DNA from: Acinetobacter sp. XS-4
GTDB taxonomy: Bacteria; Pseudomonadota; Gammaproteobacteria; Pseudomonadales; Moraxellaceae
Length of the DNA: 64,000 nt
Assembly: GCF_023920705.1 (NCBI RefSeq)
Contig: NZ_CP094657.1
Span: 868,001 to 932,000 of the forward strand
Reading direction: 5' to 3'
Each line of letters begins with the position of its first letter. Position 1 is the first letter of the stretch. The notes under the pieces were generated by a model. It was not told the DNA's origin, did not search any database, and worked only from the letters and a program-made list of their open reading frames with translations. Shown here piece after piece: positions 3,081 to 54,449 of the stretch. The translations under genes were made by a program, and so were the position numbers.

Positions 3081-3166
3081 TGGTGCCCGGGGCCGGACTC
3101 GAACCGGCACGCTTTGTGGGCGGGGGATTTTAAATCCCCTGTGTCTACCTATTTCACCACCCGGGC
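3081..3166 (-). tRNA. tRNA-Leu (TAA anticodon)
   Basis: 86 bases including an encoded CCA. The GCCCGGG/CCCGGGC acceptor stem, the long variable arm of a class II tRNA, the GTTCGAGTC T-loop and an anticodon loop with TAA are all visible. It is identical in sequence to the copy at 5223-5308. Confidence 0.95.
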
Positions 3167-3361
3167 ATGTGCGCAATAATAGATGACAAGAAGCAGATTG
3201 GCAAGAGAAAATCAGATAGTTTGCTTTATTTTCAATCAGTTCGTACATCTATTTAAAGATAAGGTCTATTTAAGTCATAATTTCTTCATTAAATTGATAT
3301 CAGTTGTTCATCTTGTGTACTTAAGTTTAAAACACTCATTGCTTGAAACTTAGGTAGTTGT

Positions 3362-5119
3362 ATGTCAGAGAAAATTTCACGCCGAGAATTAATTCAAAAA
3401 AGTCTATTCGGTTTTGGGGCGCTGTCTTTGCCAGTAGCTTTTACTGGTTGTAATGATGGCTCAGATGATGAAAGTACGGAAGCACAAGTAGATTTTTTAC
3501 ATGGGGTTGCGAGTGGTGACCCTTTGCAGGATAAGGTAATTTTATGGACGCGTTTAACACCAGTAGATATTAGTGCGCGCCTTAAGGTGACTTGGGAAAT
3601 TGCTACTGATGATCAGTTTAAACAGAATTTAAAGACTGGCGTGGTTCAAACGACTAAGACAGATGATTTCACCGTGAAAGTAGATGCAACAGGTTTACAG
3701 GCGGATACCATTTATTATTATCGTTTCCATTTTGGTAATAAAACTTCATCTGTTGGTCAAACTAAAACTTTACCTGTGAGTACCAAAAAGGTCAGCTTTG
3801 CAGTATGTTCTTGTTCTAACTATCCTGCGGGTTATTTTTACGTTTATCGTGAAATAGCAAAACAGAATGTGGATGTAGTCATTCATTTGGGAGATTACAT
3901 TTATGAATATGGGGATGGTGTTTATCCTACAAAAGAAGATACAGTGCGTGCTTTAGATGCTGATAATAACAAAGAGATTATTAAATTAGATGATTATCGC
4001 AAGCGTTATGCGCTGTATCGTCAAGATAAAGACTTACAGGCAGCTCATCAGCGCCATTCTTTTATTGTGATTTGGGATGACCATGAGTTAGCAAATGATA
4101 CTTGGCGTGATGGGGCAGAAAACCATCAAGATAATGAAGGATCTTTTTCTGATCGTAAGTTAGCAGCACTACAAGCTTATTTTGAATGGATGCCAATTCG
4201 CCCTATTTCTAGCACAGATCATCTAAATATTTATCGTCAGTTTAATTTTGGCTCGCTTGTGCATCTAACAATGCTAGATACCCGCATTATTGCGCGAGAT
4301 AAGCAGCTTGAATATAAAGACTATATGACAGCTTCTGGTTTAGATGCGCAAAAATTTCGGGCTGATTTAATGGATTCAAAGCGTACTTTAATGGGACACA
4401 CGCAAAGAGATTGGTTGGTTGATAAATTAAAGCAATCTACAGCAACATGGAATGTAATTGGTCAGCAAGTCCTAATGAGTAAGATGTGGATTCCTGCTGA
4501 GTTGTTGTTAGCTTTGGGGCAAATTACTTCGGGTGGTGCTTCTGCTGACACGCTAGCTAAAATGAATGTGCAAATTAAAGAATTAGTCGCTTTAAAGCTG
4601 CGTTTAGAGCAGGGTGATCCAACTTTAACTATTCAAGACAAAGCGCGAGTCACAACCTTGGTGCCATATAACCTCGATGCTTGGGATGGTTACGATGCTG
4701 AGCGAGAGTTTGTGTATGATAAATTGACAGAGTTTAATAAGAAAATTATTGTTTTGGCTGGTGATACCCATAATGCATGGACATCTTACTTACATAGCCA
4801 AAAAGGGGGATATGTCGGTGTTGAATTGGCGACAAGTTCAGTTTCTTCACCGGGTCTTGAAAAATACTTAAGTATTCCTTTGGCTCAGTTGCAACAGTTT
4901 GAATTTGCCTTTACTACGCTTATCGATGAGTTGACGTATTGTAATTTAAATCAGCGGGGTTATCTGGTGGTTACACTCGGTGATACCCAAGTGCAATCGG
5001 ATTGGATTTTTGTAGATTCAATTAAAAATACTGAATATGAAATAGATTCAAGTCGAAGCTTTCAATTGGTGTTGGATAAGAATTTAACACCTGAAAAAGA
5101 TAAGCAAAAAACTGCTTAA
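3362..5119 (+). CDS. phoD: PhoD-like alkaline phosphatase/phosphodiesterase
   Basis: Exported calcium/iron-type phosphatase or phosphodiesterase that releases phosphate from organic esters. The 585-residue protein starts with a twin-arginine motif (SRRELIQKS), a hydrophobic stretch and a lipobox-like AFTGC, so it may be a Tat-exported lipoprotein. A PhoD N-terminal beta domain is followed by the metallophosphatase domain, with metal-site blocks IHLGDYIYEYGDG near residue 174, IWDDHELANDTW near 237 and LAGDTHNAW near 465. It stands alone between two identical tRNA-Leu genes, with its own promoter region at 3250-3361 and a hairpin after the stop. The symbol is by family; substrate preference is not shown by sequence. 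Confidence 0.88.
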   Translation: MSEKISRRELIQKSLFGFGALSLPVAFTGCNDGSDDESTEAQVDFLHGVASGDPLQDKVILWTRLTPVDISARLKVTWEIATDDQFKQNLKTGVVQTTKTDDFTVKVDATGLQADTIYYYRFHFGNKTSSVGQTKTLPVSTKKVSFAVCSCSNYPAGYFYVYREIAKQNVDVVIHLGDYIYEYGDGVYPTKEDTVRALDADNNKEIIKLDDYRKRYALYRQDKDLQAAHQRHSFIVIWDDHELANDTWRDGAENHQDNEGSFSDRKLAALQAYFEWMPIRPISSTDHLNIYRQFNFGSLVHLTMLDTRIIARDKQLEYKDYMTASGLDAQKFRADLMDSKRTLMGHTQRDWLVDKLKQSTATWNVIGQQVLMSKMWIPAELLLALGQITSGGASADTLAKMNVQIKELVALKLRLEQGDPTLTIQDKARVTTLVPYNLDAWDGYDAEREFVYDKLTEFNKKIIVLAGDTHNAWTSYLHSQKGGYVGVELATSSVSSPGLEKYLSIPLAQLQQFEFAFTTLIDELTYCNLNQRGYLVVTLGDTQVQSDWIFVDSIKNTEYEIDSSRSFQLVLDKNLTPEKDKQKTA

Positions 5120-5166
5120 ATAGATCGAGTGGAGAGGGGTGCTAATAAGCATCCTTTTTTATAGGT

Positions 5167-5196
5167 ATAAAAAAACCAGCTTACGCTGGATTTTTT
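5167..5196. terminator. Bidirectional terminator between phoD and second tRNA-Leu
   Basis: A CCAGC/GCTGG stem has an A run on the left and a T run on the right, so it can end phoD (plus) and the tRNA-Leu/tRNA-Cys transcript (minus). Confidence 0.75.
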
Positions 5197-5222
5197 ATTG
5201 CACCATTTTCTGTACTAGAAAA

Positions 5223-5308
5223 TGGTGCCCGGGGCCGGACTCGAACCGGCACGCTTTGTGGGCGGGGGATTTTAAATCCCCTGTGTCTACCTATTTCACC
5301 ACCCGGGC
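5223..5308 (-). tRNA. tRNA-Leu (TAA anticodon), second copy
   Basis: 86 bases with encoded CCA, identical to the copy at 3081-3166 and followed on the minus strand by a near-identical terminator. It is probably co-transcribed with the tRNA-Cys just upstream. Confidence 0.95.
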
Positions 5309-5319
5309 TTTACCAAATT

Positions 5320-5393
5320 TGGAGGCGGAGGTCGGAATCGAACCGGCGTCCACGGAGTTGCAGTCCGCTGCATGACCACTCTGCCACCCCGCC
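5320..5393 (-). tRNA. tRNA-Cys (GCA anticodon)
   Basis: 74 bases including TCCA. The GGCGGGG/CTCCGCC acceptor stem, the anticodon loop with GCA and the GTTCGATTC T-loop are visible. It lies 11 bases upstream of tRNA-Leu in the same orientation. Confidence 0.95.
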
Positions 5394-46371: not shown

Positions 46372-47250
46372 ATGAAAAAATTATTTAGTGTTCTGTTCAG
46401 CGCATCTGTACTCACACTGACTGCATGTAATAAACAACCTGCACAAACTGAAAATTCAGCACCAGCTAAAGACAAAACTGAGTCAGTACGTACAATTAAA
46501 CTTGTTTCAACAGGTTCAGACACTGACGTATGGAAATATGTTGCAACGCTTCCTGAAACTAAAGAAGCGGGCATTAAACTCGAAGTGACTAACTTGACTG
46601 ACTACGTTGTGTTGAACACATCTGTAGCAAGTGGTGAACAAGACGTAAATGCGTTCCAGTCATTTAACTATTTAGCAGCTTACAATGCTTCAAATACTGC
46701 AAAAGTTGCTGCTGTTGCGACAACTTACTTGGAACCAATGGGTCTTTATGCAAATACAGCTAAAACTGTTGATGAGTTTCCACAAGGCGCTACAATCGCA
46801 ATTCCAAACGATACTGCTAACGAAGCACGTGCATTAACATTATTGCAGTCTGCTAAACTCATTAAACTTAAACCGAACTTTGACCCTGTAAAAGGGACAA
46901 CCAATGATATTGCTGAAAACCCTAAAAATTTGAAATTGAAACCAATTCAAATGACGACAGCAGTTCGTGTTAAAAACGATGTTGATGCAATTGTATTAGG
47001 TAATACATTGGCACTTGAAGGTGGTTTAAACGTACTGAAAGATTCTATCTTCCGTGAACCTGTTGACCAGTCTACAAAGCTTTATGTGAACTTATTGGGT
47101 GTGGCTGAAGCGAATAAAAATGACCCGATTTATACGAAGTTAGGTGAACTTTACCACTTACCTAAAGTACAAAAGTTTGTGAGCGAAAAATTTGCAGGTA
47201 CAAAAGTTGAAGTTAACAAACCTGTTTCTGAGTTTACTGACATCAAATAA
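46372..47250 (+). CDS. metQ: MetQ/NlpA-family substrate-binding lipoprotein
   Basis: Binding protein for a methionine-type ABC importer. The 292-residue protein has a lipoprotein signal with lipobox LTAC (Cys near residue 19), a short polar linker and the NlpA domain: TGSDTDVWKYV, ASGEQDVNAFQSFNYLAAYN, AVATTYLEPMGLYA, GATIAIPNDTANEARALTLLQ. No MetN ATPase or MetI permease gene is adjacent, so it is an orphan or partners with a transporter encoded elsewhere. The metQ symbol is by family; the ligand could be methionine or a related compound. A long structured leader precedes it and a strong terminator follows. Confidence 0.85.
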   Translation: MKKLFSVLFSASVLTLTACNKQPAQTENSAPAKDKTESVRTIKLVSTGSDTDVWKYVATLPETKEAGIKLEVTNLTDYVVLNTSVASGEQDVNAFQSFNYLAAYNASNTAKVAAVATTYLEPMGLYANTAKTVDEFPQGATIAIPNDTANEARALTLLQSAKLIKLKPNFDPVKGTTNDIAENPKNLKLKPIQMTTAVRVKNDVDAIVLGNTLALEGGLNVLKDSIFREPVDQSTKLYVNLLGVAEANKNDPIYTKLGELYHLPKVQKFVSEKFAGTKVEVNKPVSEFTDIK

Positions 47251-47275: not shown

Positions 47276-47312
47276 AAAGCTAAGCCTCGGTAATCGGGGC
47301 TTAGCTTTTTTA
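47276..47312 (+). terminator. Terminator of the MetQ-like gene
   Basis: AAAGCTAAGCC pairs with GGCTTAGCTTT with a short inner stem and a T run. Confidence 0.85.
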
Positions 47313-47570
47313 TTTAGCCAGTTTTTATTTAAATTATCTTTTAGCTCTCAGAGCTCTTATTTAAAGATCAGTAGAGGGAAATAAGACTTCGAAAATGAAA
47401 TATCTAAAAGTGGAAATTGAAGTCTAGTAAATAAAATATAAGCTAAAAATTTGTAAACTTATACTGGAAATTATTCTAATTAATTGGCATTATTTATTTT
47501 TTTTAAAGATACAAAAAATTACTTTATTTAACACAGTAAATTTTAAAAGTGCGTTAGGGAATATTTTGAA
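47313..47570. other. AT-rich upstream region of the RADAR operon
   Basis: About 260 bp between the metQ terminator and rdrA with no gene. AT content rises here compared with the metQ side. This must hold the rdrAB promoter and probably the left edge of the acquired segment; I see no integrase site or direct repeat that would fix the edge. Confidence 0.4.
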
Positions 47571-50516
47571 ATGATTGAGCGTTTACATCAAGAAATTATA
47601 ATAGATTTATCTAATAGTAATGGTGATCATATTCAGTTAGGTAAAAAGGATCTCATCCACTATCAAGCTTATGAAAAAGTTGAAAAAATAGTTGGGGAAC
47701 ATCTTAAGGAAATTGAAAAATATCCATCTACAAATACTTCAAATCTTTCTATATTTATTGATGGTACTCGTGGAGCCGGAAAAAGTACATTTTTAAAAAA
47801 TATAGTTAAAGAGTTGATCACTATAAATCAATATAAATTAGAAAAGTTAATTTATATTGACCCTAGTAAAATTGAGTTGAATGAGCATATTTTTCTGACT
47901 TTGATAGCTCAATTAAACCAAACAGTAATAAAAAGTAGAAGGCATATGCATATTCATCATTCTGATGAGATGGATGCTGAATATGAATTATGGCGTAAAA
48001 AATTAAAAAAAATAGCTGGGGGATTAAGATTACTCAATAGTGGTAAGAATCCTTATGACTTAATTGATGATGATGTTTTTTTGGATTGGGGCTTAGATCG
48101 TGCAGATGATGCAATGCAGTTGCATTCATCTTTTGAAGATTTGATCAAGCATGCTTGTACGATTCTTAATAAAAAGGCCTTAATTATATTAATAGATGAT
48201 GCTGATACTCATTTTAAAAAAGGCGAACAAGTCTTAGAAATGGTAAGACGTTATTTAAATATTCCTCAAATTATTGTAATGATGGCTGGAGATTTAAAAC
48301 TTTATTCAAATGTAGTGAGAGGATTATATTTGGGTAATATGAGTGAAAATTTATATAAATATGATCAAAATCGTACTAGAGAACGAAGTAATTTATTAGA
48401 TCATATGGAAGATCAATATTTAAAAAAAATATTTCCTATACAAAATAGAATTTCACTTAATCCTTTAAATAAGCTTGTTAAAGAGGCAGACTACAAAGTT
48501 AGCTTTTCTAGTTCTGAGAATACAGAAGTTAATAATGTAACTATAAATATAGAGGATTCTATTGATAAGTTAATCCAATTTGGTTTTCATGTTGAGGGTT
48601 CTTCTAATATTCAAACTTATCGTGATTTTTTACTACAACAGCCTTTGCGTTCGGTTCTACAATTATTGCAATCAAGTTCAGAAATTTATTCTAAAGAAAT
48701 TAATCATGAGAATTTATTTAAATTTACTCCACAAGTTGCACAGAGCTTTAGAGATACTTTCTTAAGCAGTCTCTATGCTGCAAAAGTAGAGGTAGAGAAG
48801 TTAAATAATGGTGATGAAAATACTTTAATTGAAAGTGTATTCGATACAGTTACCCAAGATGGTCGACAAGATACGGGATGTTATCTTAGGCCTCAGGCTA
48901 TTGAAGATAACTTACGAAATTCATTTGTAGCATTAGCCGCTAGTGTTGCTGAATTTACACAGGGTAAGGCTTCATCTGCGATTAATTATATGTTGCAATG
49001 TTCTGGAAGCGTTAGTTTATTTTATTATATAAAGGATGAGTTAAAAAGATACCATTCAGATGAGTCTTTACAATTATTACAATTTAAACGTTATTGTGGT
49101 ATTGGCCAACATGAAGATGCATTAAATTGGGCATGGCATGCAACTGCAGTTTTAATGTCAAAAAAATCTTCTAGTTCTATAAAGGCAGGTATTATTAAAC
49201 TTAGGACTACAAAGGATAGTAGAAATTTTACAGCATATGAATTCATAAAAAGAAATAGAGAAATATCACTGCCTTTTAATTTAGGTTTAATCGAGGTGGT
49301 AGGGCATAATAAACAATTATATTTTTCAATTTTTAATATCTTAGGGGTAATTTTTAGATTACTTAAAATTGGTGAAAATTTTATTGAAGTTTCAAAAATT
49401 CCTTCTGAAATTAATGATGATATTGATATAATAGAGATAGCACCAGAACTGTGGGAGAATGTAAATAATTGTTTGAGAAAGTTAGAGGTTACTTTAGGTA
49501 TTTCAGCACCAAATTGGTCTGATTTCTCAAATGATATGTCTTCTGAACTAGAAGATAAAGAAATTGAAGATAGTGATAAAGAATATATTGAAAAATGGGT
49601 TTCTGCTATATGTAAATGGCTAATTATTTCTCATAAAGATTTAGTTAATATACAGCCATCTTCTATATTTCTTGGTAAAGTTTGGATACGATTATATTTT
49701 AGTTTAGTTGGGGTGGCAAATAGTAAAGAAAATTGGCATGATCTAGGAAAGATTATTTCTTTATATACTCATTGTTTGATTAATGCTTTTTTGGTTGAGG
49801 AAGAGGATCATCACTTTAAGGTTCTTAATTTAAATAAAGAAAAATTTTTAACAAAAAAAACAAATAGACAAAACCCTAAAAATTCTCTTAAACCACTTAA
49901 TGAGAAGTTAAAAGAATTAAAAAATAATAATTTTGATGGTTTTCCATTAACAAAAATGATTGCTAACTGCCCTGTTATTCAAGGATTAATAACTAATAAT
50001 AATGATACTTATATTAATGAGACTACATTTGTTTCTATGTTGCCTAATACTATTGGTAAGGTGATGATTTCTGGAATTGATATAGGTAGTGAAGAAGAGG
50101 TTGTATTAAAAATGTTAAATGAAAATAAAAATCGTTTACTAGATAATCGTGAACGCCTTTATCATCAAAGACAAGTGAGAAAATCTAAATTGAATATGGC
50201 TAAAAATCTATTAGAGGAAAATAGAGAAAAAATAATTGTAAATAATAATGATTTAAAAAATTTAAAAAATATTCTTATTCAATTAGATTTTAATTCAGAT
50301 CTTAATTCAGATCTTAATAAAAATAAAATAATAGAAGAAATTGAAAATAAAGAGCATGAATTAAGTGAGCTTGAGAAAAATAGAGTAATTATTGAAAAAG
50401 ATATTGAACTGGAGAATGAAATACTAGGGAGTATAAATTCAACAATTAGAGAGCTAACATCTGAAATTCGTAAAATTAACGTTCAAATTCGTGAACTAAA
50501 AGAAAAGGGGAACTAA
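47571..50516 (+). CDS. rdrA: RADAR antiphage system ATPase RdrA
   Basis: A 981-residue P-loop NTPase. Walker A GTRGAGKST is at residues 65-73 within SIFIDGTRGAGKSTFLKN; Walker B ALIILIDDAD is near 203-212, followed by a sensor-like IIVMMAGD. The middle is alpha-helical, and the last ~130 residues are a charged coiled coil. In RADAR, RdrA forms rings that join RdrB into a large complex that edits adenosine in nucleotides or RNA during phage infection. Assignment rests on this ATPase being one base upstream of an RdrB-like deaminase and on length. The gene is much richer in A and T than its chromosomal neighbours, a sign of transfer. A 12-base tandem repeat near 50290 encodes NSDLNSDL. Confidence 0.85.
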   Translation: MIERLHQEIIIDLSNSNGDHIQLGKKDLIHYQAYEKVEKIVGEHLKEIEKYPSTNTSNLSIFIDGTRGAGKSTFLKNIVKELITINQYKLEKLIYIDPSKIELNEHIFLTLIAQLNQTVIKSRRHMHIHHSDEMDAEYELWRKKLKKIAGGLRLLNSGKNPYDLIDDDVFLDWGLDRADDAMQLHSSFEDLIKHACTILNKKALIILIDDADTHFKKGEQVLEMVRRYLNIPQIIVMMAGDLKLYSNVVRGLYLGNMSENLYKYDQNRTRERSNLLDHMEDQYLKKIFPIQNRISLNPLNKLVKEADYKVSFSSSENTEVNNVTINIEDSIDKLIQFGFHVEGSSNIQTYRDFLLQQPLRSVLQLLQSSSEIYSKEINHENLFKFTPQVAQSFRDTFLSSLYAAKVEVEKLNNGDENTLIESVFDTVTQDGRQDTGCYLRPQAIEDNLRNSFVALAASVAEFTQGKASSAINYMLQCSGSVSLFYYIKDELKRYHSDESLQLLQFKRYCGIGQHEDALNWAWHATAVLMSKKSSSSIKAGIIKLRTTKDSRNFTAYEFIKRNREISLPFNLGLIEVVGHNKQLYFSIFNILGVIFRLLKIGENFIEVSKIPSEINDDIDIIEIAPELWENVNNCLRKLEVTLGISAPNWSDFSNDMSSELEDKEIEDSDKEYIEKWVSAICKWLIISHKDLVNIQPSSIFLGKVWIRLYFSLVGVANSKENWHDLGKIISLYTHCLINAFLVEEEDHHFKVLNLNKEKFLTKKTNRQNPKNSLKPLNEKLKELKNNNFDGFPLTKMIANCPVIQGLITNNNDTYINETTFVSMLPNTIGKVMISGIDIGSEEEVVLKMLNENKNRLLDNRERLYHQRQVRKSKLNMAKNLLEENREKIIVNNNDLKNLKNILIQLDFNSDLNSDLNKNKIIEEIENKEHELSELEKNRVIIEKDIELENEILGSINSTIRELTSEIRKINVQIRELKEKGN

Positions 50517-50517
50517 C

Positions 50518-53034
50518 ATGATTCACAAGTGTCCCCAACCTAATACAATTTTGTCACCTTTTTTACTTGCTAATTCGCATTTACTTAAGAAGTTAGAGGG
50601 GATACCTTTCGTAAGTGAAATTAATGAAAAAGATCTCGAAGAGACAATTTATTTAGCTTATCAGCCTTGGCGTGCTTCTTATCCAGACCATGTATTTAGA
50701 TCACATTGGTCTTTGGTAAAACAAGAAAAAAATTCTAGTGGTAAAGGTTGGATATATAGCTCTTTAAAGCTGTTATCTGACCAATACATATATTTTCGTG
50801 GTGATAAAATACATGTTGAACTCTCATTATTTGGTGATTGGCAGAATTTATTAAGTCGTGTTTCGGCTCTACCAATTCGTATTGCTGCCTATTCAATACC
50901 TTCGGTTAAAAATCGCATGAGGCAAGTACCATTACCTAACAATAAGGGGGTCTTTACACCTATTTATCCTTATGAACCAGTAGTAGACTCTTATATTTCA
51001 GATGAAGGATTACATGAAACTCATTTACATTTAAATGGTACTACAAGTGCAGAATGGTGTTGGTTAAGAGCATTATATAATCCGAAAAAAGAATTAAATG
51101 AATTTTGTGATCAATATAAAGAAAATCATTTAGTGAGAGAGCTTTGTCATTCAATTAATCCTGATTTAAATCCTAGCTCTTTAAATCAGTGGTTAAAAAT
51201 AGCCAGATTGTTACGTTGTTGGTTAATAGCAATTGCTGATGGACGTGCTAAATTCTTTTCAGAAAATATAAAAAAAAATTTAGATCCTACTTATAAAAAT
51301 ATTTCTTTACCGCATGATATATCTAGTTTGCTATTGTTAGATCATGATTTTCCATTTTTCGATAGTTCACCTCCTTTATTCGGAAATATAAATTCTTTGA
51401 TTGAACAAGAAGTTCAATGGTTATATGAAATTATTAAGCAACTTAGTGATAAACCTTCTAAATTAACAGATAGATTACTTCATTTGTATTTATTAATTCA
51501 AAATCAGTATTTACAATTAGTTGTACAACGTGAAGATATGTATGGATTTGATCAGTTTCAAAAATATACTTTTACTGACTTAAGGGAAGCATCTGAAAAA
51601 AAATATCTTTATCGTTTCCTGCAATTGAGTGGAACAAATCCACAGAGAAGTAATATAAATTGGCTTGAAGGACGTTTTGCCCCTAAGAATGAATTAAGAA
51701 AGAATGAAAAAATACTAAGTAGCATATTAAAAGGCTATCTTTTTTATCTTTCATCAAATATTGAAAGTGACTATCAGCACTGGGAACTTTCACAGATACT
51801 TGAAAAACTTAACGATCAAGTCACACTGGCATGTTCTATAGGTTCTAGAAAATATTTTAAATTAGCTTTAGTTATACATTTTATTAAAGAAGAATGTAAA
51901 TATGAAATTGGAAAACAAGATTATCGACATAAAAAGTTAAGGTTAAAGCTAAAAAACCAATGTGATATTTTACAAAAAACTTTAGAACGCTGGCCTCAGC
52001 TCTCTCAATGGATTCGTGGCATTGACGCTGCTTCAAATGAATTACATGCTCCACCAGAAATATTTGCACCGTTCTATAGAGCGGCTAAGCAATATGGAAT
52101 ATTACATAGAAGTTATCATGTAGGTGAAGATTTTCCTCATTTAATTAGTGGTATTCGACAGATTATTGATGTTATGGACTTACTTGATTTTCAGGTAGGA
52201 GATCGTATAGGTCATGGCACGGCTGTAGGTATGGATCCTGAGATATGGATAAATAGTATGCCTTCACAAATTGTCATCCAACGTGGGGAATGGCTTCTTG
52301 ATTTGCTGGTAATCTGGGATATTTTAAAATCAAAACCTGAGTGCTATGAAGCAACACAAAAGATAACCAGAGACATCAATATTCTTATTAGTGATATATT
52401 TCAGCATGATATGGAGATCAAGCCTGAAACACTATTAAGGCAAATGCAATATCGTGGATTACTTCCTGAATATGTATTTAATGCTATTGATGATAAAGAT
52501 GAATGGTGTTGGCAAACATCAACATTTAATGATGTTTGGAGACAAGAAGCATACCTTGTTGCAAAAGTTTTGAAAAAAAATAAGTTAGATATTTTAGCCA
52601 AATGGTGGCGTGACCCTAATGTAATTATGAAGAGTAAAGAACATATTAATATTGATTCAAATTATTTGGATATAGAAACATTAATCTTATTACAGCAGTC
52701 CACACTGCGTAGGCTTGCAGAAGCACGTATTGTAATAGAAACGCTACCTACGAGTAACGTTCGCATCAGTCAATACCAACATTATAGAGATCATCACGCA
52801 TTACGTTGGATGAGAGTTGAAGGCTTTCAAAAGCCAAATGATCCTACAATTGCTATTTCTTTGGGTTCTGATGATCCAGGTATATTTGCTAATGATATAG
52901 TTAGTGATTTTTATCACTTATATGCGGTATTGGTAGAGAAAGGGTTGAGTGATAGTGAAGCCATTCAAAAACTTCGAGATGTTAACGAACGTGGCAAATT
53001 ATATCGATTTCATGATCCAGAATTGTTTGGATAG
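50518..53034 (+). CDS. rdrB: RADAR antiphage system adenosine deaminase RdrB
   Basis: An 838-residue protein with a divergent adenosine-deaminase metal site spread over its length. The HxH pair is at 169-171 (HETHLHLNG), HVGED at 534-538 gives a zinc His and the catalytic Glu, GDRIGHG near 561-567 gives the next His, and GSDDPGIF with Asp785/Asp786 completes the site; TLPTSNV also matches the ADA family. Large inserts make it far longer than ordinary deaminases, as expected for RdrB. It should convert adenosine (in RNA or as ATP) to inosine on phage attack, with RdrA. Start follows the rdrA stop by one base, with AGGGG inside the end of rdrA, so translation is coupled. Confidence 0.88.
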   Translation: MIHKCPQPNTILSPFLLANSHLLKKLEGIPFVSEINEKDLEETIYLAYQPWRASYPDHVFRSHWSLVKQEKNSSGKGWIYSSLKLLSDQYIYFRGDKIHVELSLFGDWQNLLSRVSALPIRIAAYSIPSVKNRMRQVPLPNNKGVFTPIYPYEPVVDSYISDEGLHETHLHLNGTTSAEWCWLRALYNPKKELNEFCDQYKENHLVRELCHSINPDLNPSSLNQWLKIARLLRCWLIAIADGRAKFFSENIKKNLDPTYKNISLPHDISSLLLLDHDFPFFDSSPPLFGNINSLIEQEVQWLYEIIKQLSDKPSKLTDRLLHLYLLIQNQYLQLVVQREDMYGFDQFQKYTFTDLREASEKKYLYRFLQLSGTNPQRSNINWLEGRFAPKNELRKNEKILSSILKGYLFYLSSNIESDYQHWELSQILEKLNDQVTLACSIGSRKYFKLALVIHFIKEECKYEIGKQDYRHKKLRLKLKNQCDILQKTLERWPQLSQWIRGIDAASNELHAPPEIFAPFYRAAKQYGILHRSYHVGEDFPHLISGIRQIIDVMDLLDFQVGDRIGHGTAVGMDPEIWINSMPSQIVIQRGEWLLDLLVIWDILKSKPECYEATQKITRDINILISDIFQHDMEIKPETLLRQMQYRGLLPEYVFNAIDDKDEWCWQTSTFNDVWRQEAYLVAKVLKKNKLDILAKWWRDPNVIMKSKEHINIDSNYLDIETLILLQQSTLRRLAEARIVIETLPTSNVRISQYQHYRDHHALRWMRVEGFQKPNDPTIAISLGSDDPGIFANDIVSDFYHLYAVLVEKGLSDSEAIQKLRDVNERGKLYRFHDPELFG

Positions 53035-53399
53035 TATGAGCTGTAATCATGTTTATAAAAAATATATTTAAATATGTGAGATGAGATCTGACATATAAAT
53101 TGTATAGTTGTTTTTGTTGTTTTATATAGAGCAGTATCTACACTTTGACAAGTTTGAAATTGCTACTTTAGATATTCCAACACCTCCTTCAAATTATTAT
53201 CATTTCTATATGTTGGTAGGATAGGTTTTATGTAACTAAGCCGCTTTACTCATTTTAATAGTGTCTTAATTAAGCACTGATCTATTCTGAATAACCGAAA
53301 TTAATCCCTTTATAAACCCCCATTTAACAATAATCATCTCATTATTTATCCTTACTTTTTAATGATCTAATTTAAAACAAATGTCATTTTGTGTGCTTG

Positions 53400-53660
53400 A
53401 CTGCAAAAGGGTAGAGCACTATTCTTTGCCTGCTGGCCTACATTGCCAGACGGTTTTAGCAGACCGTACTCAAGTACATTGAAAAAACTCGTTTTTTTTA
53501 ATGTAGACCCGTTCGTCTCCCTTTTGTTGCGGTAGGACGGAAGGGGGACACCTTCGGGTGTGCTGGGTCTTGAGCCAGTCTGCTAACCCCCTTTCGTTCT
53601 GCCACCATAATTCTATAAATGTCTGGCAGAACTCCCAATAAAAAGGAGTTGGCTTTGCAC
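53400..53660. ncRNA. Dense nested inverted repeats: candidate structured RNA of a phage-like element
   Basis: Local hairpins: CTGGC/GCCAG (53433-53449), TACATT/AATGTA (53475-53505) extended by A-run/T-run pairing, ACACC-TTCG-GGTGT (53548-53561), GTTCTGCCA/TGGCAGAAC (53596-53632) and ACTCC/GGAGT (53631-53649). A long-range two-part helix TTAGCAGAC...CTCAAG (53456-53474) with CTTGAG...GTCTGCTAA (53569-53586) encloses two of them. The strand of transcription is uncertain. The layout recalls phage immunity RNAs of the C4 kind, but this is a weak memory match. Confidence 0.45.
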
Positions 53661-53662
53661 AT
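53498..53662 (-). CDS. Small phage-like hypothetical ORF, doubtful
   Basis: A 54-residue basic frame on the minus strand from ATG 53662 (open to a TTG at 53689), ending VSPFRPTATKGRRTGLH. Its Arg/Lys-rich end resembles small proteins I associate with phage or satellite ash-type regions, but I cannot verify that. It covers the inverted-repeat block, so the frame may be a by-product of a structured RNA rather than a gene. No good ribosome binding site is seen. Confidence 0.3.
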   Translation of the reverse strand: MCKANSFLLGVLPDIYRIMVAERKGVSRLAQDPAHPKVSPFRPTATKGRRTGLH

Positions 53663-53894
53663 TCTTAATTTCTTGGCAGCCTTTGCCAAAGTCTATATCG
53701 ACACAACTTAAACTTTTAAAGCAGTTTGATGGCCATTGGGCTTTTCAGGCTTTAATTCGTCACGACCAAAAAACTTGATCAACAATAAAACTTGAGATGT
53801 GCCACGCACAGTCTTTATGGGCTTTGCTATGCCTTTTTTTCTCCCAAAAAAGTATCTCGTTTATCTACAACAAGAATTTTATAACGGTAAAACT

Positions 53895-54449
53895 ATGCGA
53901 CATTCAGATCTTCCATTTCGTGCTTTAAGCGTGCTTCATACCTCTCGATATCTTTTTAATAAATATGGCTTTCATAAAGTCGGGGTAGACCGAATTATTG
54001 AATTGTCAAAAACGTCCAAAGCGACTTTTTATAATTATTTTCACTCGAAAGAACGTCTTATTGAAATGAGCTTAACTTTTCAAAAAGATGGACTTAAACA
54101 TGGGGTGATTTCGATTATCAATGTTCAAAAAGAATTAACGCTAATTGAAAAGCTCCGCAAAATTTACTTTTTACATACCGATTTAGACGGACTCTACCAT
54201 TTGCCTTTCAAAGCCATTCTTGAGATTTCAAAAACACATCCAAAGGCATATCAAGTGGTCGTTGAATATCGAAACTGGTTTATTAATGAAATCTATAATT
54301 TACTTTTAACAACCAATGCCAATGCCGCAAAACAAGATGCGTATATGTTCTTGTTTGTGATTGATGGGGCGATGGTTCAACTTTTAGACCCCAACAAACC
54401 AGATGAAAGGGAGAGATTACTAGATTATTTTCTGATCCAATTTAAATAG
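53895..54449 (+). CDS. TetR/AcrR-family transcriptional regulator
   Basis: A 184-residue dimeric repressor-type protein. The N-terminal helix-turn-helix reads SRYLFNKYGFHKVGVDRIIELSKTSKATFYNYFHSKERLIEMSL, shown here by its parts GFHKVGVDRII and SKATFYNYFHSK. The C-terminal ligand domain is helical. The frame is open back to a GTG at 53799, but ATG 53895 gives the usual short lead before the HTH. Its targets are unknown; the neighbouring nitroreductase and SDR genes are on the other strand and are plausible candidates. Confidence 0.82.
   Translation: MRHSDLPFRALSVLHTSRYLFNKYGFHKVGVDRIIELSKTSKATFYNYFHSKERLIEMSLTFQKDGLKHGVISIINVQKELTLIEKLRKIYFLHTDLDGLYHLPFKAILEISKTHPKAYQVVVEYRNWFINEIYNLLLTTNANAAKQDAYMFLFVIDGAMVQLLDPNKPDERERLLDYFLIQFK

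Follow-up and report, generated by a model that had tools for sequence, protein, structure and literature searches.

The neighbouring genes rdrA and rdrB of Acinetobacter sp. XS-4 form a complete, intact and divergent RADAR operon, of the known two-gene anti-phage kind. They were found in a stretch of 64,000 nucleotides, hereafter the window, and the prediction from which we started, that the operon is chromosomal, is borne out by the location of the window inside a single 4.17 Mb contig. That the locus is RADAR by descent, taken on its own, is close to certain, as profile matches in PADLOC, phmmer comparisons, predicted folds and the co-occurrence of the two genes at the same loci all agree on this identity. 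The parts of the operon, in window coordinates, are:

47571..50516, + strand: rdrA, AAA+ ATPase of RADAR, 981 aa (from sequence, profiles, residues and fold)
50196..50513, + strand: RdrA residues 876-981, C-terminal coiled-coil-like extension, unaligned in the relatives compared
50504..50511, + strand: AAAGGGGA, candidate Shine-Dalgarno-like stretch just 5' of the rdrB ATG and within the end of rdrA, from reading the sequence
50518..53034, + strand: rdrB, enlarged adenosine deaminase of RADAR, 838 aa (from sequence, profiles, residues and fold)

Both open reading frames lie where they had been predicted, on the same strand, with one base between the stop codon of the first and the ATG of the second, a spacing that corresponds to the tandem rdrA-rdrB arrangement of RADAR. 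Neither frame contains an internal stop; with the nucleotide frequencies of this segment, a frame open by chance over 981 codons at any one position has a probability of about 1e-39, and one of 838 codons about 4e-34, and homologues of both proteins are present in many genomes. Promoter-like sites upstream of rdrA do not exceed chance expectation. We also considered and rejected a further, accessory RADAR gene, as the interval between rdrB and the TetR gene to its right contains no start of a plus-strand frame longer than 40 aa, the sole frame there being one of 63 aa on the minus strand; nor was any third gene beside RdrA and RdrB conspicuous by eye among the mechanically called frames of 24 relatives.

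A profile search, one of the checks proposed together with the original prediction, returned RdrA (2.5e-22) and RdrB (2.9e-18) as the best PADLOC matches of the two proteins. Weaker matches in the same collection were mad8 (4.5e-5) for the 981-aa protein and, for the 838-aa protein, CARF_ADA (8.2e-6, covering the deaminase part only) and two type IV Cas5 models (0.003 and 0.0088). By phmmer, RdrA matches the solved RdrA chains 8hr7_A and 8fnt_B over residues 60-833 with E 6e-78, the next match being at 0.17, and RdrB matches the solved RdrB chains 8fnw_A and 8fnv_A over residues 14-833 with E 6e-163, against 0.07-0.25 for solved ordinary adenosine deaminases. In Pfam, A_deaminase scores above its cut-off on the 838-aa protein (1e-10, 41.6 bits against 27) and nSTAND_NTPase5 below its cut-off on the 981-aa protein (2.7e-7), while the NCBIfam adenosine deaminase model matches the 838-aa protein at 9.8e-13, below cut-off. 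Such deaminase matches are to be expected, because RdrB itself contains a deaminase core.

The dedicated NCBIfam models also recognise the two proteins below their curated cut-offs: NF041743 (RdrA) with E 2.2e-40 and 138.8 bits against 600, and NF041744 (RdrB) with E 4.9e-33 and 114.7 bits against 800. None of ten RADAR proteins from five relatives passes these cut-offs either, including both proteins of two loci, L098 and L101. The RdrBs of these loci align to the solved E. coli RdrB with 1634 bits (L098) and 1775 bits (L101), yet the RdrA and RdrB proteins of the two loci reach just 111-134 bits on the two models. Because such close kin of the solved protein miss the cut-offs too, the shortfall here is no counter-evidence; the cut-offs do not cover the branch to which the window RADAR belongs, and annotation by NF041743 and NF041744 would under-call RADAR.

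The other proposed check, a comparison of predicted with solved structures, gave solved RdrA and RdrB chains as the top Foldseek matches of the respective models, each an AlphaFold2 prediction of a single chain. For RdrB (31 alignment rows, mean pLDDT 88.9), the first eight matches are RADAR RdrB chains with E between 9e-51 and 1e-48, and the next is a deaminase at 8e-5; against 8fnv and 8hr7 the TM-score is 0.89-0.90 by target and 0.82-0.85 by query over about 840 columns. The 838 aa and this predicted fold accord with an RdrB-type deaminase of about 90 kDa carrying three large insertions. For RdrA (35 rows, mean pLDDT 78.3), the first 19 matches are RdrA chains of the PDB entries 8hr7, 8hr8, 8hra, 8hrb, 8fnt and 8fnw, with a best E of 2.5e-41 and a TM-score of 0.74-0.79 by target and 0.62-0.68 by query, and the predicted fold aligns with these 19 chains over 846-902 columns, consistent with the large alpha-helical C-terminal lobe of RADAR-type RdrA.

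The motifs named in the original prediction are all in place, GTRGAGKST and ALIILIDDAD in the 981-aa protein and HLH (169-171), HVGE (534-537), GDRIGHG and GSDDP in the 838-aa protein, and they correspond to the functional positions of the E. coli system, for which structures exist of RdrA (8fnt), RdrB (8fnv) and their complex (8fnw), as well as 8hr7-8hrc. In RdrB we assign H169, H171, H534 and H566 as zinc ligands and E537 as the catalytic residue, together with D785; the first five are the counterparts of H152, H154, H498, H530 and E501 of E. coli RdrB and are invariant in all 86 aligned RdrBs (84 different sequences, counting the window and leaving out three short ones). In RdrA, Walker A is GTRGAGKST at 65-73, Walker B is DD at 209-210, sensor 1 is D241 and sensor 2 is R360. 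E. coli residues G81/K82/T83, D221/D222, D253 and R377 align with G70/K71/S72, D209/D210, D241 and R360, so that the only change among these ATPase positions is T83 to Ser; with the window included and six short or cut sequences dropped, R67, G68, G70, K71, D209, D210 and R360 are invariant in 80 of 80 RdrAs and D241 is kept in 78. The contact surfaces are less alike. The crown residues by which E. coli RdrA docks on RdrB, K150/E151/R162, are Y138/E139/G150 here, one of three being kept at an interface that may co-vary, and the three-fold interface of E. coli RdrB, E595/E596/E597, corresponds to D631/M632/E633 by hand count, in columns that are poorly aligned across the family.

To place the operon among its relatives, we used an alignment of four RdrB sequences to scan GTDB species genomes; this yielded 98 relatives, of which 80 were kept; five viral contigs and three plasmid loci (the pRLN3 record being present twice) brought the set to 88 RADAR loci. 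An RdrA homologue shares the locus with RdrB in 85 of these, some loci being cut at contig ends, and in the three others (L082, L115 and L138) RdrB sits at a contig edge. The RdrB tree groups the window with three Methylococcales loci (SH-aLRT 96), and the RdrA tree, built from 32 of the 80 RdrAs, groups it with the Methylococcales locus that has a complete RdrA (L089, 99/95). For both trees the program cautioned about long terminal branches and uneven sequence composition, and as each of these cautions names the window in the case of the RdrA tree, its place there is less sure. These nearest relatives are L089, a metagenome-assembled genome, L081 from Methylovulum psychrotolerans and L082 from Methyloglobulus morosus, with RdrBs 48-51% identical to that of the window and an RdrA identity of 37%. 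They differ from the window in that the RdrA of L089 has 837 aa and ends 63 residues after a Cys-Pro pair, against 180 in the window, that two frames match RdrA in L081, the better of 459 aa ending about 1.5 kb before an open rdrB, and that L082 is cut by a contig edge. The E. coli operon has the same gene order, protein sizes, catalytic and ATPase residues and both predicted folds, whereas the identity in structural alignments is 34-36% for RdrB and 24-26% for RdrA, its RdrB belongs to a separate clade, the docking and three-fold-interface residues are partly changed in the window, and the window RdrA has an additional coiled-coil-like tail. RdrA of Streptococcus suis RADAR (8fnu) is recognised by fold (Foldseek E 2.5e-11, next after the 19 chains above), although this is a much weaker match with a TM-score of 0.37-0.43. 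Cad1 (CARF-ADA), a CRISPR-associated deaminase that acts on ATP, shares the deaminase core, but its best Foldseek E is 1.2e-2, its partner is a different one, and Pfam finds no CARF domain in the window RdrB.

Within the genus the operon is rare. Single-protein and alignment searches placed RdrB in one of 175 same-genus genomes (one genome per species), namely the source genome itself; the NCBIfam RdrA model gave one further weak partial match among the genus genomes (34 positions, E 6.9e-4), and a single-protein scan of genome contigs gave no match. A class-wide search of 369 genomes with RdrB alone returned two weak partial matches besides the source genome, a search of low reach, because the alignment scan found 98 relatives. 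In PMC9994260, RADAR is reported from 270 of about 38,000 genomes, and Table S1 of that paper covers 75 genera, which may include Acinetobacter; we found no report of RADAR in Acinetobacter in the titles or abstract openings of the open-licence papers that our literature searches returned, and the word 'RADAR' is absent from the main text of PMC12421847. The two genes have a GC content of 0.28 and 0.32, against 0.374 for the window. Together with the single occurrence in 175 genomes and the sharp borders described below, this makes horizontal gain of the operon the most likely reading. Phages and plasmids were tried as its origin and rejected, as neither the 50,697 phage records nor the 72,556 plasmid records contain a close match; no RdrB protein match was found in phages, while distant homologues occur on plasmid records (RdrB on seven, RdrA on five) and on the five viral contigs. 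As separate observations, four of the RADAR operons (L161-L164) are on IMG/VR contigs classed as viral, possibly prophage-borne, and on pRLN3 of Rhizobium leguminosarum (L077, 9354-14131) RADAR is followed by genes annotated as adenylosuccinate synthetase and metallophosphoesterase, which may be relevant to inosine nucleotides or a matter of chance.

The borders of the acquired segment become visible in comparison with same-genus genomes, and involve the following features:

46372..47250, + strand: NlpA/MetQ-family lipoprotein gene, left neighbour, kept in relatives, outside RADAR
47276..47308, + strand: intrinsic-terminator-like hairpin after the nlpA-type gene, left border of the slot
about 47318..53305, no strand: variable cargo segment holding the operon, its edges being where homology stops and resumes in same-genus relatives
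53525..53609, + strand: C4 antisense RNA (RF01695), leader of the right-border TetR unit, outside RADAR
53799..54449, + strand: multicopy TetR-type regulator, right neighbour, outside RADAR

We compared the fourteen same-genus genomes that, after the source genome, best match the nlpA-type gene. All fourteen cease to be homologous to the window at 47310-47336, just past the terminator, and in the thirteen that have the right unit homology resumes at 53305-53309 (none was seen in the stretch taken for L071). Between these edges the relatives hold different DNA, 139 to 10,911 bp long, so that all thirteen with both edges found carry other cargo or almost none, and tblastn found neither RdrA nor RdrB in the fourteen stretches. 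The slot of one relative contains a second copy of part of the nlpA 3' end (L065, 10556-10790, 94%), and the slots of two others contain one of a 57-bp terminator stretch (L068, 9757-9813, 86%; L075, 10513-10569, 93%), repeats that hint at an exchange of cargo by recombination. The slots of twelve relatives contain 45 open reading frames of at least 100 aa, and the thirteenth none. We scanned 34 of these, the other eleven having been dropped by eye as mostly further copies of included ones; PADLOC matched eleven families at E up to 0.001, each with one member and with a best value of 9.4e-8, so that there is no clear case for calling the slot a defence island. Pfam matches among the 34 included, with one member each, Imm30, APH, a ParB-like nuclease, a metallo-beta-lactamase fold and a TauE-type exporter.

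The right border unit, a C4 antisense RNA and a TetR-type gene spanning 53306-54449, is repeated elsewhere. The source genome contains 26 C4 RNAs above cut-off, the TetR protein has 17 matches there (among 17 scored of 45 candidates), and six of thirteen other TetR-unit stretches from this genome share its left edge (query 264-277). In the plasmid collection, 11 of the 11 records that match the right flank are from Acinetobacter, the best four being A. baumannii at about 86% identity, so that the source is probably related to A. baumannii without belonging to that species. In four A. baumannii records the right edge is retained, but the stretches compared contain neither an nlpA-type match nor RADAR. 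TetR-type regulators and an sRNA control a colony-phenotype switch in A. baumannii, as described in PMC9802203, and the right-border copy possibly belongs to the kin of these switch regulators. Elsewhere in the window (3081-5393), two tRNA-Leu(taa) genes lie about 2.1 kb apart, the second adjoining tRNA-Cys.

Besides the slot, the end of RdrA is an unusual feature of the operon. After the conserved Cys-Pro pair (800-801) the window protein continues for 180 residues, the third-longest tail among 80 RdrAs (median 98; two are longer), and its last 106 or so residues have no counterpart in three RdrAs compared. Long helices are predicted at 913-947 and 955-980, with block pLDDT of 76-87 in their cores and below 60 around them, and on a simple home-made score the heptad pattern is the strongest among the tails tested (0.75, the next being 0.60). 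We read this tail as a putative coiled-coil extension, perhaps an added element for oligomerisation or sensing. Its codon positions retain an unequal GC content (0.41, 0.15 and 0.12), and an origin by loss of a stop codon was judged less likely, because rdrB still begins one base downstream. The C-terminal lobe of RdrA is proposed in PMC9994260 as the phage sensor; the tail lies just past this lobe, which makes tailed and tail-less RdrAs directly comparable. Another long tail occurs in the 1161-aa RdrA of Shewanella pneumatophori (L120), ending in a repeated ELTKAE-like stretch. One could also speculate, as a rather unlikely extension, that this is a RADAR variant whose own C-terminal coiled-coil arm changes infection sensing or ring stacking relative to the E. 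coli and S. suis systems, housed in a general Acinetobacter cargo slot that exchanges passenger genes by recombination at dispersed C4-RNA/TetR units, a family that might include phenotype-switch regulators.

If the homologous E. coli system is taken as a guide, RdrA would assemble into a heptameric AAA+ funnel docked on a hollow dodecamer of RdrB; upon sensing of phage infection, RdrB would deaminate ATP and dATP to ITP and dITP, and the nucleotide pool, poisoned by these products, would no longer support phage growth. Assembly, (d)ATP deamination and phage defence in Acinetobacter are thus carried over from the published E. coli work, in which robust deamination of ATP and dATP was observed (PMC9994260). 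We consider it probable that the operon is an intact, horizontally acquired two-gene RADAR and that it would act by this E. coli-like mechanism.

According to PMC9994260, the original report on RADAR, from Citrobacter, proposed RNA editing as its mechanism, and there are PDB entries that bear titles of RdrA rings in an RNA-loading state. It is nevertheless improbable that the operon, while RADAR by descent, acts mainly through adenosine editing in RNA and not on free nucleotides: PMC9994260 describes for the E. coli system no strong editing signature and no deamination of RNA in vitro, against the strong activity on ATP and dATP, and the window RdrB has the active site and predicted fold of E. 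coli RdrB. Less probable still is that the locus derives from RADAR and no longer works in defence, with open genes whose products have ceased to assemble. Compared with E. coli, the crown differs at two of its three residues and the RdrB interface likewise at two of three, one of the interface changes being a conservative Glu to Asp, the RdrA end branch is long (2.01), and the operon occurs in a single genome of the genus; mutation of RdrA K150/E151/R162 or RdrB E595/E596/E597 impaired E. coli RADAR (PMC9994260). However, the frames are intact, the catalytic and Walker residues are retained, and interfaces are able to co-vary between lineages, RADAR proteins being generally divergent outside their active sites (PMC9994260). 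The partly changed docking and interface residues may reflect either such co-variation or an altered assembly. Finally, an unrelated STAND/AAA ATPase beside an ordinary or CARF-type deaminase, as the matches to A_deaminase, nSTAND_NTPase5, the NCBIfam adenosine deaminase, mad8 and CARF_ADA might suggest, has a negligible probability, being refuted by the phmmer and Foldseek matches to RdrA and RdrB, with a Foldseek E some 45 orders of magnitude better for RdrB chains than for any other deaminase, and, for a CARF-deaminase, by the weak Foldseek match and the absence of a Pfam CARF domain from the 838-aa protein.

With this operon the genus gains a complete, divergent RADAR, which none of its 174 other species genomes sampled shows, and it marks the slot behind the nlpA-type gene as a place in Acinetobacter chromosomes in which to seek rare accessory genes.
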